Assembly (NCBI GenBank): GCA_025458465.1 | Contig: JALOSK010000060.1 | Coordinates: 1-23,840 of the forward strand | DNA length: 23,840 nt | Source of the DNA: Sandarakinorhabdus sp. | Lineage (GTDB): Bacteria; Pseudomonadota; Alphaproteobacteria; Sphingomonadales; Sphingomonadaceae | Direction of reading: 5' to 3' | In this document: positions 2,455-14,541 of the stretch, piece by piece | How positions within the stretch are numbered: the stretch's first letter is position 1 | How the letters are laid out: the number at the start of each line of letters is the position of its first letter | Program-made: the position numbers and the translations under genes | The notes under the pieces: generated by a model | Told to the model about the DNA's origin: nothing | What the model saw: only the letters and a program-made list of their open reading frames with translations | The model's database searches: none

Positions 2455-2565
2455 GCGCGCCAAGTCTCGCAGGCCTCGGCCGGCGGGGCCATCTGCCGCA
2501 CCCGGCTGGTGGCTCGACCTCAACAGGTCGGACGCAAACAGGGTGGGACGACAGGGGTTTTCGCC

Positions 2566-2877
2566 TTGGCCGACCGCAAAGCCGACGAGGACAGTCTCGC
2601 GCGCCGCATCGCTGCGGCCCGGGCCGCCGAATCCGGCCGCAAGGATGGCGCCAAGCAGGGCGAGAACGCGGGTTGGCAGGTGGCTTCCGAATTCATCGGG
2701 GCCATGCTGGCCGGCGGCTTCATCGGCTGGTTCATCGACCGGCAGCTGGGCACCGGACCCTGGGGCCTGATCCTGATGTTGATGCTGGGGTTTGCGACGG
2801 GTCTCTACCAGTCGCTGCGCCGGCAGAAGAGATTGGACGCTGACGCGTCAGGCGCTGAACAGATCGACGGGGAATAG
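2566..2877 (+). CDS. atpI: F0F1 ATP synthase assembly protein AtpI
   Basis: A small membrane protein that heads the F0 operon and is thought to help assemble the c-ring. The start chosen is TTG at 2566 because AGGGG (2552-2556) lies nine bases before it. A GTG at 2509 would add 19 residues that do not look like the family and lacks a good ribosome site. The 103-residue product has a charged N-terminus (ADRKADEDSLARRI) and two hydrophobic segments. The first contains GAMLAGGFIGWFIDRQLGT, the glycine-rich hairpin typical of AtpI; the second is GLILMLMLGFATGLYQSL. It ends six bases before atpB, so the two are co-transcribed. The family is clear; the exact start is not certain. Confidence 0.85.
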   Translation: MADRKADEDSLARRIAAARAAESGRKDGAKQGENAGWQVASEFIGAMLAGGFIGWFIDRQLGTGPWGLILMLMLGFATGLYQSLRRQKRLDADASGAEQIDGE

Positions 2878-2883
2878 ACGGCC

Positions 2884-3624
2884 GTGGCCAATCCGATGGA
2901 CCAGTTCAAGATCGAAACCGTCGTGCCGTTCGAGGCCGGTGGGTTTGATCTGGCCTTCAGCAACTCGTCGCTGTGGATGCTGATCGCGCTGATCTGCATT
3001 TCCGCCTTCCTGTTCATCGGCACCGCCAGGCCGGCGCTGGTGCCGGGCCGCATGCAGGCCGCCGTCGAGCTTCTCTATGATTTCATCCGCGACATGCTGC
3101 GCGAGAATGTGGGCAAGGATGGCCTGCGTTATGCGCCGCTGATCTTCGCGGTGTTCATCTTCGTGCTGGCCTGCAACCTCCTGGGCATGGTGCCGTTCGT
3201 GCACAGCTTCACGCCCACCAGCCACATCGCCGTCACCTTCGGGCTGGCGATGATCGTGTTCACGCTGGTGGTGATTGTCGGCTTCGCCCGCCACGGCCTG
3301 CATTTCTTCTCGCTGTTCCTGCCCGAAGGCACGCCGCTGTTCGTGGCGCCGCTGGTGGCCCTGATCGAGTTCCTGTCGTTCCTGTCGCGCCCGTTCACGC
3401 TGGCCATCCGCTTGTTCGCCAACATGACTGCCGGTCACGTGCTGATGAAGGTGTTCGGCGGCTTCGTGGTGTCGCTGGGCGCCGTGAACGTGGGCCTGGG
3501 CCTGATCCCGCTGGGCGTCAACGTGGCGCTCACCGCGCTGGAACTGCTGATCGCCGTCGTGCAGGCCTATGTGTTCGCGCTGCTGGCCAGCATCTATCTG
3601 AACGACGCCGTCAATCTTCACTGA
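2884..3624 (+). CDS. atpB: ATP synthase F0 subunit a
   Basis: Subunit a of the inner-membrane F0 motor, which forms the two proton half-channels beside the c-ring. The 246-residue length is normal. Several long hydrophobic segments are visible, and the essential arginine is Arg176 in the stretch LAIRLFANMTAGH, the family signature. The start is GTG at 2884, just after a GGGGA-containing stretch in the end of atpI; an ATG four codons later is a weaker alternative. The gene lies between atpI and atpE in the order atpI-B-E-F'-F usual for alphaproteobacteria, whose F1 genes lie elsewhere. Confidence 0.97.
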   Translation: MANPMDQFKIETVVPFEAGGFDLAFSNSSLWMLIALICISAFLFIGTARPALVPGRMQAAVELLYDFIRDMLRENVGKDGLRYAPLIFAVFIFVLACNLLGMVPFVHSFTPTSHIAVTFGLAMIVFTLVVIVGFARHGLHFFSLFLPEGTPLFVAPLVALIEFLSFLSRPFTLAIRLFANMTAGHVLMKVFGGFVVSLGAVNVGLGLIPLGVNVALTALELLIAVVQAYVFALLASIYLNDAVNLH

Positions 3625-3661: not shown

Positions 3662-3886
3662 ATGGAAGTCGCTGCTTACAAGCTGATCGGTGCCGGTCTG
3701 GCCGCCATGGGTGCCGGTTTCGCCGCCATCGGCGTCGGCATCATCTTCGGGATGTTCCTGCAGGGTGCCCTGCGCAACCCGGCCGCTGCCGACAAGCTGG
3801 GCGCCCGCCTGATCTTCGGCTTCGCCGTGACCGAAGCGCTGGGCCTGATCGCCGCCGTCGTCGCGCTGGCGCTGGCCTTCGGCTGA
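3662..3886 (+). CDS. atpE: ATP synthase F0 subunit c
   Basis: The c subunit, a 74-residue helical hairpin that assembles as a ring and carries protons across the membrane. The first helix is glycine- and alanine-rich (GAGLAAMGAGFAAIGVG). The polar loop contains RNP at residues 38-40. The ion-binding carboxylate is Glu59 in the stretch VTEALGLIA. AAGGA lies about seven bases before the ATG, a good ribosome site that suits the high copy number this subunit needs. A strong stem-loop follows immediately downstream and separates it from the b' gene. Identification is secure. Confidence 0.97.
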   Translation: MEVAAYKLIGAGLAAMGAGFAAIGVGIIFGMFLQGALRNPAAADKLGARLIFGFAVTEALGLIAAVVALALAFG

Positions 3887-3955: not shown

Positions 3956-4356
3956 GTGCCTCAGTTCGATACCGCCAATTTCGCGTCCCAGCTGTTCTGG
4001 TTCGGCGTCATCTTCGCCGTGCTGGCGATCTTGATCGGGCCGAACAGGCCAAGGGCGCCGCCGACGGCATCCGCACCGCCCACGAAGCGGCGATGAAGGA
4101 CGCCCAGGGCGCTGCCCAGGCCAAGGTGAACGCCGCCCGCGAGGCGGCTGCCAAGGCGGCAGATGTCCGGCTGAAGGAACTGAACGCCCGCCTGGAAGCC
4201 GACGCCGAAGCGGCGGCTGCCAGGCTGGACACCGCGCGCGCCACCGCCCGCGAGGGGCTGGCCAGCACGGTTGCCGACTTGACGGCTGAAGCCGTCGGCA
4301 AGCTGGCCGGCATCAGTGTCACCCCGGCCGATGTGGCCAAGGCCCTGAAGGCTTGA
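3956..4356 (+). pseudogene. atpF': ATP synthase F0 subunit b', frameshifted with an internal deletion
   Basis: The b' subunit is part of the peripheral stalk joining F0 to F1. A GTG at 3956 has GGGA eight bases upstream and opens a typical b' N-terminus (PQFDTANFASQLFWFGVIFAV). About 25 codons on, that frame turns into proline/arginine-rich nonsense and stops near 4093-4095. The true coiled-coil tail (DLDRAEQAKGAADG onward to VAKALKA at 4356) is in another frame. The end of the transmembrane helix and the start of the coiled coil are missing. The switch falls at GGCGATCTT (4024-4032), readable as L-A-I in the first frame and G-D-L in the second. This fits a deletion of 3k+1 bases between short direct repeats. 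A 5'-truncated product from ATG 4093 (87 residues, no membrane anchor) is possible. An assembly error is also possible. Confidence 0.8.
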
Positions 4357-4366
4357 GGAGGCGATC

Positions 4367-4921
4367 ATGGCAGATGAAAGCTTGACCGCCGAAACCGTTG
4401 CCAATGGTGAGGCCCATCACGAGGAAACGCTGCTCGGCCTTGGTGCCGAACAGTGGGTCTATACCGGCGTTGCCATTTTCATGGTGCTCGCCGTGGTGGT
4501 CTTCAAGGCGCCGTCGCTGATCGCCAAGGCGCTGGATGAGCGGATTGCCGGCGTGAAGAAGCAGCTGGATGAGGCTGCCTCGCTGCGCGCCGAGGCCGAA
4601 GCCCTGCTGGCCGATGCCAAGGCGAAGACCGCGGCTGCCGAAGCCGAAGCCGCCGCCATTCGTGCGCAGGCCGAAGCCGAGGCAGATGCTCTGGTGAAGG
4701 CCAGCGAGACCGCGGCGAGCGAGGCCATCGCCCGCCGCACCGCTGCTGCCGAAAGCCGCATCGCCGCTGCCGAGCGCGCAGCCGCCGCCGAACTGAAGGC
4801 CGAGGTTGCCGCGCAGGTGACCAAGGCCGCCGCCGCGATCATCGCCGCCAAGGCGGACAAGGACCTGATGACCCGTCTGACCGACGAGGCCATCGCCGGG
4901 CTGGATCGCCGCCTGCACTGA
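4367..4921 (+). CDS. atpF: ATP synthase F0 subunit b
   Basis: Subunit b of the peripheral stalk, 184 residues. A short polar N-terminus (about residues 1-27) is followed by one transmembrane helix (WVYTGVAIFMVLAVVVF) and a long alanine- and glutamate-rich helix that should pair with b'. GGAGG lies six bases before the ATG, a strong ribosome site. The gene begins 10 bases after the broken b' gene, so both would be on one transcript. Length and composition are normal, so if b' is truly lost this would be the only intact b-type subunit in the operon. A tandem repeat starts directly after its stop codon. Confidence 0.95.
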   Translation: MADESLTAETVANGEAHHEETLLGLGAEQWVYTGVAIFMVLAVVVFKAPSLIAKALDERIAGVKKQLDEAASLRAEAEALLADAKAKTAAAEAEAAAIRAQAEAEADALVKASETAASEAIARRTAAAESRIAAAERAAAAELKAEVAAQVTKAAAAIIAAKADKDLMTRLTDEAIAGLDRRLH

Positions 4922-4924
4922 GCC

Positions 4925-5014
4925 GCCTGCGGCGTTCATTGACCGGCCGCCTGCGGCGTTCATTGACCCAGCGCCTGCGGCGTTCATTGACCCAGCGCCT
5001 GCGGCGTTCATTGA
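4925..5014 (+). repeat. 24-bp tandem repeat, four copies, behind atpF
   Basis: The 18-base core gcctgcggcgttcattga recurs at 4925, 4949, 4973 and 4997, an exact 24-base period. The spacers differ slightly (CCGGCC, CCCAGC, CCCAGC). It begins four bases after the atpF stop. Each unit carries a short CCGC/GCGG-type self-complementary stretch. Copy-number variation by slippage is expected. There is no gene in it. Confidence 0.9.
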
Positions 5015-11846: not shown

Positions 11847-12578
11847 TCACGCAAGCAACAGGCCGCGCAGCCGTTCGCGCGCCGTCCACACGCGCGCCTC
11901 GGCCGGGTTGCCGGCCAGCAGGTTGCGGGCGAGGAAATAGCCGGAAAGCTTCAGGCCATCGGCCAGTGCATCAGCATCGCCGCCGCCGCCTGCCAGCAGA
12001 AAGGCCGGCAACGGCAACAGCTTGGCGGCGTAAGGCGCGCCGGCACCGCGCGACACGGCCTGGCGTGATTTTGGCGAGACATAGGCCAGATCATCGCTTG
12101 CGCCGGTGGCCGCACAACTGGCCAGATCAAGGCCCAGCCCCAGATCGGCCAGCAGCGCCAGTTCCAGCCGCACCAGCGCGGCGGCCTTGGTGGGCGCATC
12201 GCTGCCGGCGCCGGCAGCGGCGAACAGCGCGGCGAACAGCGGGAACAGGCGCGGGTGGGGCTGATCTTCCGGCAAGGTCGCGGCGGCCAGCGCGGCGAGA
12301 TACTCCACCATGGCGATGGCGCCGGCGCCGTGGATCATGGCCAGATTGCTGGCCAGCGGGTGCACGCCGGCCTGCCGCAGCTGTCCGGGCCGCCGCTCGA
12401 CAAGATCAAGCGCCACCACCTGCCCATGCTGCAGGATGGCACGCAATTTCCGCCCGCGCCCGCCGGGCACATAGGCGGCCACCAGGCCCAGTTCTTCGGT
12501 GAGGAAACGGGCCACCACGCCATGTTCGCCATGCGCGATTGCCGCCACCACCAGCGCCGGTTCGATGCGGATCATCAT
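11847..12578 (-). CDS. recO: DNA repair protein RecO
   Basis: A 243-residue RecO, which with RecR loads RecA onto SSB-coated gaps and anneals single strands. The N-terminal OB-fold starts MMIRIEPALVVAAIAHGEHG and includes LVAAYVPGGRGRK, the basic loop common in alphaproteobacterial RecO. The helical C-terminal domain has LGLDLASCAATGASDDLAYV and SPKSRQAVSRGAGAPY, both characteristic. It is the first gene of the minus-strand recO-parC unit. The start may be ATG 12578 or the next codon. The promoter region is shared with the divergent PEP-CTERM gene. Confidence 0.93.
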   Translation of the reverse strand: MMIRIEPALVVAAIAHGEHGVVARFLTEELGLVAAYVPGGRGRKLRAILQHGQVVALDLVERRPGQLRQAGVHPLASNLAMIHGAGAIAMVEYLAALAAATLPEDQPHPRLFPLFAALFAAAGAGSDAPTKAAALVRLELALLADLGLGLDLASCAATGASDDLAYVSPKSRQAVSRGAGAPYAAKLLPLPAFLLAGGGGDADALADGLKLSGYFLARNLLAGNPAEARVWTARERLRGLLLA

Positions 12579-12626
12579 TTGCTTAATCTCTGCGAATCAC
12601 ATAGGAGATTGTGAAATTCACGTAAA
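12579..12626. promoter_or_regulatory. Overlapping divergent promoters, recO and PEP-CTERM gene 1
   Basis: Plus strand: TTGCTT (12579-12584), 17 bases, TAGGAG (12602-12607). Minus strand: TTTACG (12621-12626), 17 bases, TATGTG (12598-12603). The two -10 boxes overlap, so both cannot be occupied at once. Both spacers are exactly 17. The GATTGTGAAAT motif (12607-12617) is shared with the promoter of the second PEP-CTERM gene. Confidence 0.45.
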
Positions 12627-12636
12627 GGTAATGTAC

Positions 12637-13407
12637 ATGAACACGGTTGCGTACACGATGCTCGGTCTCAACAACGCGGCGCTTTGCCGGATTGGCGCCT
12701 CGGCGCTCACCATGATGGCGGCGGCTGCGCCGGCTGCTGCCGCAGTTGTCATCCCCGCTGTTCCGGCCAATATCGGCGCCAACTGGACCGTCACCTATGA
12801 CGCACGGCCAGGCAACAGCAACACCGTGGTCACCCCGGGTGTGACGGCATCGATCAACTTCACGCTGGTCGGCCTGCTGAACGACAATCGCACCTGGCGC
12901 GTGCTGGCAGAGGTGGCCAACACGTCCACCGTTGGCACGGCGGCCACGGGCGCGCGGCTTGGCGCCTTCTCGTTCGATACCGATCCCAATCTTGCCAGCG
13001 TCCGGTTCGTCGACAAGGGGGATTTCAACTTCATCGGCACCGGCGGCAACATGACCGGTGGGTTGAACAACGTCGAATTCTGCATTGGTGTCGGCTCCAA
13101 CAATTGTTCGGGTGGCGGCAACAATGGCATTCGCGTGGGCGAGGCGGGTGACACGCTGTTCGACCTCACCTTCCTTGGCCAGGCGCCCACGGCCATCCAG
13201 TTCAGCAATTTCTTCGTGCGCTGGCAGGTGCTGCCGAGCAATCCGAGCTCGGGCGTCGGCCGCATGACAAGCATCACGGTTGACGGCAATGGCGGTCCCC
13301 AGGGCATCCCGGAACCGTCGAGCTGGGCGATGCTGATCGCCGGCTTTGGCCTTGTTGGTGCGGTGGCGCGCCGCCGCAAGCGCGCAGGGGCTGCCGTCGC
13401 GGCCTGA
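12637..13407 (+). CDS. PEPxxWA-CTERM exported protein, probably cistern family
   Basis: A 256-residue exported protein. The N-terminal signal peptide has a hydrophobic, alanine-rich stretch ending near AAAAVV. The mature part is rich in Asn, Thr and Gly and looks like a beta-sandwich; it contains FCIGVGSNNCSGGG with two nearby cysteines, which I take as the cistern-family pattern. The C-terminus is the sorting signal: PEPSSWA at residues 225-231, a hydrophobic helix, then RRRK. An exosortase would cut there and hand the protein to the outer surface, but none is in this window. ATG 12637 is chosen because AAAGG precedes it by eight bases. The longer in-frame start at 12499 lies within recO. 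Confidence 0.85.
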   Translation: MNTVAYTMLGLNNAALCRIGASALTMMAAAAPAAAAVVIPAVPANIGANWTVTYDARPGNSNTVVTPGVTASINFTLVGLLNDNRTWRVLAEVANTSTVGTAATGARLGAFSFDTDPNLASVRFVDKGDFNFIGTGGNMTGGLNNVEFCIGVGSNNCSGGGNNGIRVGEAGDTLFDLTFLGQAPTAIQFSNFFVRWQVLPSNPSSGVGRMTSITVDGNGGPQGIPEPSSWAMLIAGFGLVGAVARRRKRAGAAVAA

Positions 13408-13581: not shown

Positions 13582-13612
13582 GATTGTGAAATGTGCAAGA
13601 CTCGGTTAGGAA
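13582..13612 (+). promoter_or_regulatory. Putative promoter of PEP-CTERM gene 2
   Basis: TTGTGA (13584-13589), a 17-base spacer and TAGGAA (13607-13612). The -35 lies in GATTGTGAAAT (13582-13592), an 11-base match to the leader region of PEP-CTERM gene 1. The rest of 13472-13581 shows no gene. Confidence 0.45.
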
Positions 13613-13641
13613 AACTTGTTCTTAACGCGAGGGCAATGAAC

Positions 13642-14541
13642 ATGAACAAGTTGATTTACGCTTTGGCGGGATCTGCGATGATGCTGGCGGCGCCGGCATT
13701 CGCATCCGTGCCACTGGTCAGCTCGCCGATCACGGTGACGACGGCTGATATCAACAAGAATTTCACCTATAACTTCAACGGTATCGTTGAAGGCCAGGAC
13801 CAAGCAGGGCTCGAGTCCGCCATCACTTTCCGGCTGACTGGCGTGAATGGCAATGTCTGGACCTTTGCGGCCCGCGTGGACAACACGCTGTCCACCGATC
13901 CGGTTGGCGGTCGTATCACCGGCTTCGGTTTTGACGGTAGCCCCGCCATCACGGGTGGTCAGGCCTTGGCCGGTCCTTTCGGTACGTTCGTGACGAATGC
14001 CGGCTTCCCGCAGATTGGCGGTCAGACCAGGATCGATTTCTGCGTGACGTCCGGTTCGAATTGCCAGGGCGGTGCTGGCGGCGGTGTGGCGGATGACCTG
14101 ACCGGGTTCCAGACGTTCGAACTCTCCTTCGGCAGCTCACCCCTCTCGGTGACGTTCGACAATTTCATCGTTCGCTATCAATCCATCACCGGCAGCCAAT
14201 TCGGCAGCTCCGGTATCGGTCTTGGGACCGGAGGCGGTGGCAATGGTGGCTTCGATCCGGGTGGCATCCCCGAACCGTCGAGCTGGGCGATGCTGATCGC
14301 CGGCTTCGGCCTCGTCGGTGCCGTGGCGCGCCGCCGCAAGGCTTCAGGTCTCACCGTCGGCCCAGTCGACCCTGAAGCCCAGTCGACGCTGAAACCTAGT
14401 CGACGAAGTCCAGCCCGACCGCGCTGTACAGGCTGCGGTCCTCGCCCCAATCGGGCTTCACCTTCACGTGCAGGAACAGGTGCACCTTGGTGCCCAGCAG
14501 ATCGGCGATGGCGGTGCGTGCCGCCTCGCCGATCGTCTTGA
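13642..14541 (+). CDS. PEPxxWA-CTERM exported protein with abnormal C-terminal extension
   Basis: A 299-residue paralogue of the gene just upstream. The signal peptide is MNKLIYALAGSAMMLAAPAF with a cut after AFA. The mature part has FCVTSGSNCQGG (two close cysteines, as in gene 1) and FDNFIVRYQ near the end of the fold. The sorting signal PEPSSWA is at residues 210-216, followed by a hydrophobic helix and RRRK ending at residue 233. Normally the protein would stop soon after. Here it continues for 66 residues of arginine/proline-rich sequence, of which the last 48 codons are antisense to era. A 17-bp tandem duplication explains the loss of the stop. ATG 13642 is chosen because GAGGG lies eight bases upstream. 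The native end was probably near 14399. Confidence 0.8.
   Translation: MNKLIYALAGSAMMLAAPAFASVPLVSSPITVTTADINKNFTYNFNGIVEGQDQAGLESAITFRLTGVNGNVWTFAARVDNTLSTDPVGGRITGFGFDGSPAITGGQALAGPFGTFVTNAGFPQIGGQTRIDFCVTSGSNCQGGAGGGVADDLTGFQTFELSFGSSPLSVTFDNFIVRYQSITGSQFGSSGIGLGTGGGGNGGFDPGGIPEPSSWAMLIAGFGLVGAVARRRKASGLTVGPVDPEAQSTLKPSRRSPARPRCTGCGPRPNRASPSRAGTGAPWCPADRRWRCVPPRRSS
14361..14411 (+). repeat. 17-bp tandem repeat at the PEP-CTERM 2/era boundary
   Basis: Three 17-base units lie head to tail: 14361-14377, 14378-14394 and 14395-14411. Each begins CC(C/T)AGTCGAC. The first two differ at only two positions; the third is degenerate at its 3' part and contains the era stop codon (14396-14398, minus strand). 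Since 17 is not a multiple of three, copy changes shift the plus-strand frame. An 8-bp inverted repeat, GCTTCAGG (14341-14348) with CCTGAAGC (14371-14378), overlaps it. Confidence 0.85.

Follow-up and report, generated by a model that had tools for sequence, protein, structure and literature searches.

The gene for the b' subunit of the F-type ATP synthase (atpF') lacks 73 bases in the window, by which we mean the whole 23,840-nucleotide stretch analysed here, and frame breaks are in excess in its source draft genome (G000) over a genome of the same genus (G004). We regard the b' break as very probably an assembly error, one among the many short deletions that we take to be spurious in this draft, with b' being intact in the living cell.

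The b' gene in the atp operon

The window spans the full length of contig G000:C96, which belongs to a 2.5-Mb draft genome made up of 374 contigs, with a completeness of 75.9% and 2.26% contamination. The subunit a that it encodes has 95-97% identity over 196 residues to those of Sandarakinorhabdus sp. AAP62, S. limnophila, S. oryzae, and two pond drafts, which are the top five among the best 80 loci. On the + strand the genes stand in the order atpI-atpB-atpE-b'-atpF, with starts at 2509, 2884, 3662, 3956, and 4367, and b' therefore has its operon place. The four neighbours are intact and all score above their own Pfam cut-offs: atpI (2509..2877; PF09527, 49.9 bits, although no NCBIfam match was found at E 0.1), atpB for subunit a (2884..3624; PF00119, 213 bits), atpE for subunit c (3662..3886; PF00137, 31.5 bits), and atpF for subunit b (4367..4921; PF00430, 61.3 bits). 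As with the F-type ATP synthase b' of Paracoccus denitrificans and purple non-sulfur bacteria, the b' of the window lies between atpE and atpF and has a homologous N-terminus and a coiled-coil tail, but in the window it has no continuous frame and residues 24-47 are gone.

Several other features were seen in this DNA. A 24-bp tandem repeat (4923-5014, 3.8 copies, 95% match) begins directly 3' of the atpF stop codon, and searches of the window for RNA families and tRNAs found none. Two adjoining proteins (12499-13407 and 13591-14541) each carry a PEP-S-S-W-A-M stretch near the C-terminus, which we take to resemble a PEP-CTERM sorting signal. Elsewhere in the draft, a PF00006 frame fitting the ATP synthase beta subunit (L211, on G000:C361, 2777-3376) reaches a contig end. 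A second full-length PF00006 match, on G000:C264, has neighbours that look flagellar by eye, and no clear ATP synthase alpha subunit is therefore seen in the incomplete draft.

The break and the size of the loss

The frame that opens with GTG at 3956 has 46 codons and stops at 4093. Its first 23 codons (3956..4024, + strand) are an intact b' N-terminal piece, all 23 residues being equal by eye to those of the homologue P0002, and a 26-residue query from this end matches relatives. The tail (4027..4356, + strand, with its stop) is in another frame; it begins D-L-D-R-A-E-Q at 4027, has 90% identity to P0002 over 98% of its length, and its frame contains no start codon earlier than ATG 4093. Both ends are thus homologous to intact b' proteins, although the tail scores 18.1 bits with PF00430, below the cut-off of 28, compared to 56.2 for intact P0002. 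A single open frame of about 158 residues is not present, as the frame changes at 4024/4027, while the b' proteins of 65 intact loci have 158-166 residues. The preliminary description had placed the start at 3956 and the tail in a different frame, and had noted that the last part of the membrane helix and the beginning of the stalk were missing; its coordinates and frames are confirmed, and P0002 residues 24-47 are indeed absent from the window.

We examined 102 loci of relatives (L005-L106), of which 65 have both an N-terminal match and an intact b', some genomes being present twice. From codon 23 to the Asp codon there are 75 bases in all ten of the closest loci compared and 2 in the window, giving a loss of 73 bp, or 24 codons and one base, rather than the approximately 30 codons supposed earlier. 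The join, at 4023..4026 on the + strand, has an edge that is ambiguous by about one G, and blastn against a same-genus stretch (L147) places a gap of exactly 73 bases there with a clean join. Because 24 codons are absent, no frame shift could restore the b' protein, and gene overlap and programmed frameshifting are ruled out. L-A-I had been thought plausible for an intact b', but the 65 intact loci, again with some genomes counted twice, have Tyr at residue 24 in 52 cases, Leu in 12, and Trp in one, and never Ala.

The preliminary description had also proposed that 3k+1 bases were deleted between two copies of the nonamer GGCGATCTT. The length fits this proposal (73 = 3x24+1) but the mechanism does not, and on the evidence of the relatives' sequences, which led us to reject it, the deletion almost certainly did not occur in this way. 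GGCGATCTT has a single + strand copy in the window, at 4024; there, as in three of the ten closest loci, it does lie at the right edge. Among the 65 intact loci, however, it is absent in 54, occurs once in 11, and never twice. Moreover, the left edge reads CTC-TAT in all ten closest loci and shares 0 bp of homology with the right edge, so the second nonamer sought at the other edge is not there.

Frame breaks elsewhere in the draft

A reference-free scan for frame switches was run on 562,317 unmasked bases of G000, drawn from 72 contigs or parts of contigs and including the window, and on 1,040,000 bases of G004. Unfiltered, the scan gives 32 candidates in G000 and 13 in G004 (p 9e-7). With a filter that was picked after the unfiltered lists had been viewed, it gives 22 and 3, respectively, corresponding to 39 and 2.9 per Mb (binomial p 7e-8). 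At this rate about 0.9 candidates are expected per 23.8-kb window. The b' break itself is not caught, its first piece being too short, and the sole unfiltered row in the window lies on the other strand and is removed by the filter. Some of the 22 filtered rows do not appear by eye to be gene-internal: L131 resembles a shadow frame, the two pieces of L120 have residues in common, and two genes are joined in each of L200, L216, and L226.

Family models were applied to 16 pieces from nine of the 22 G000 rows, representing seven proteins; the other 13 G000 rows and the three G004 rows lie outside this comparison. All 16 pieces match their own family; within each protein they follow the order of the model, which has positions skipped at each join, although many score under whole-protein cut-offs, as expected for protein pieces. 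The model gaps run from 164 to 196 in PyrC (dihydroorotase), 46 to 63 in CydB, 125 to 134 in Tig (trigger factor), 166 to 209 in MetF, and 107 to 131 in a serine hydrolase. Two joins each are found in NrdB (ribonucleotide reductase beta; 214 to 228, and 64 to 126 with a 42-residue piece outside the model search in between) and in an HI0933-like protein (127 to 152 and 57 to 74). The split nrdB, pyrC, cydB, tig, metF, and HI0933-like genes are found on the G000 stretches L213, L119, L196, L192, and L247. Conserved genes are thus broken more often in G000 than in the relative, the pattern looked for in an assembly break, with 22 candidates in 562 kb compared to 3 in 1.04 Mb and seven proteins recognized by family models.

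Alignment of G000 with G004 by blastn covers 123,402 bases and reveals three gaps of at least 50 bp on the G000 side, all of them out of frame within conserved genes. These are 53 bp, split by blastn into 19 and 34, in an acyl-CoA dehydrogenase gene (L134), presumably for isovaleryl-CoA dehydrogenase; 73 bp in the b' gene of the window; and 115 bp in a gene on L214 that we assume to be DsbD-like. On the G004 side there are likewise three gaps of at least 50 bp (68, 129, and 551 bp), each beginning where a frame ends or shortly beyond it, so that the two genomes differ here in the place of the gaps only and not in their number. Gaps of 15-29 bp number six per side. A scan of gene pairs finds that 4 of 82 change frame on the G000 side, which by eye are two true breaks and two start extensions, with b' not being flagged. 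In the reverse scan, 5 of 77 pairs change frame: the same two G000 breaks, two that resemble start or shadow extensions, and one pairing L193 with L186. In this last pair a 510-residue frame (L193 from 10138) is continuous in G000 and split in G004 (L186) by a 19-base gap, and either side may be right. The three joins located against the relative all read G and then GC (window 4023-4026, TG|GCGA; L134 at about 5792, TG|GCCG; L214 at about 400, CG|GCGC), a pattern noted after the fact from three joins of a GC-rich genome, which may be chance or a trace of read failure.

Presence of b' in the lineage

Of 23 other genomes searched in the genus, 22 yield a b' match free of internal stops and one yields no match. 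None of the 28 database matches to the tail is truncated, all having 157-180 residues among candidates limited to about 60-190, and the database search with the 46-residue product of the broken frame gives no candidate. For the tail, dN/dS is 0.27-0.44 against six relatives, compared to 0.15-0.36 among those six. Being only slightly above the relatives' values, the ratio indicates no long period of relaxed constraint and is unlike that of an old pseudogene, although a very recent loss would leave no such trace.

We also considered whether an intact b' lies elsewhere in the genome, as had been suggested. With PF00430 the draft yields only b, the broken b', and one weak match (E 0.49), and a DNA search of the draft with the b' region returns the region itself and 41 short matches, the best with E 2.4e-4 over 30 bases; no second b' is thus found, and in a draft that is incomplete this leaves its absence unproven.

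Discussion

The stator of alphaproteobacterial ATP synthases normally needs b' beside b. A cell living on b alone had been one of the options put forward, and we see nothing in favour of it; our literature search on the need for b' found no test of its loss. In Paracoccus, the peripheral stalk contains b and b' as single copies (PMC4593670).

Had a real deletion recently inactivated b' in the sampled strain, the cell would have been left either with a stator built on b only or without a working ATP synthase. The contig does read this way, the neighbouring atp genes are intact, and no second b' was found. Such a deletion would also require, however, that NrdB, PyrC, Tig, MetF, and CydB be broken in the same genome, and the untruncated database matches, the fragment without a candidate, and the only slightly raised dN/dS of the tail likewise speak against it. 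We therefore consider it very unlikely. It is also very unlikely that a sub-population of this Sandarakinorhabdus-like bacterium has truly lost these bases, in which case its ATP synthase would run with a b-only stator or with b' pieces that are translated separately.

That the assembly is wrong at this point, the remaining option of the preliminary description, is supported by the many breaks of the same kind in G000, and we favour this reading because it is implausible that one living cell should have this many of its core genes broken together. The sequences show the 73-base loss and the excess of frame breaks over G004; that the loss arose in assembly, and at which step, we infer. The fragmented draft assembly would have put the two sides of a short stretch together and dropped the 73 bases between them, and it would likewise have omitted 50-115 bases from many other genes, where the sides joined share hardly any homology or none. 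One sub-case of assembly error would be a mosaic contig, with sequence from two related strains meeting within b', or a contig that carries a minor variant from a strain mixture. The fragmentation of the draft and its 2.26% contamination are compatible with this, yet both halves of b' fit one closest homologue, P0002, and we consider this sub-case very unlikely.

Spurious pseudogenes of draft assemblies have been documented in a study that ties them to low coverage and sequencing platform and uses an excess of them to recognize poor assemblies (PMC11017572). G000 resembles such cases in that conserved genes appear broken in a poor assembly, and differs from them in that the breaks looked at here each remove 53-115 bases, or about 8 to 42 positions of the family model.

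A count of frame switches against a genome of the same genus, being reference-free, is a cheap check of an assembly. Gene losses read from the G000 draft, including those of core genes, are not to be trusted, and the claim of an alphaproteobacterium living without b' is removed.
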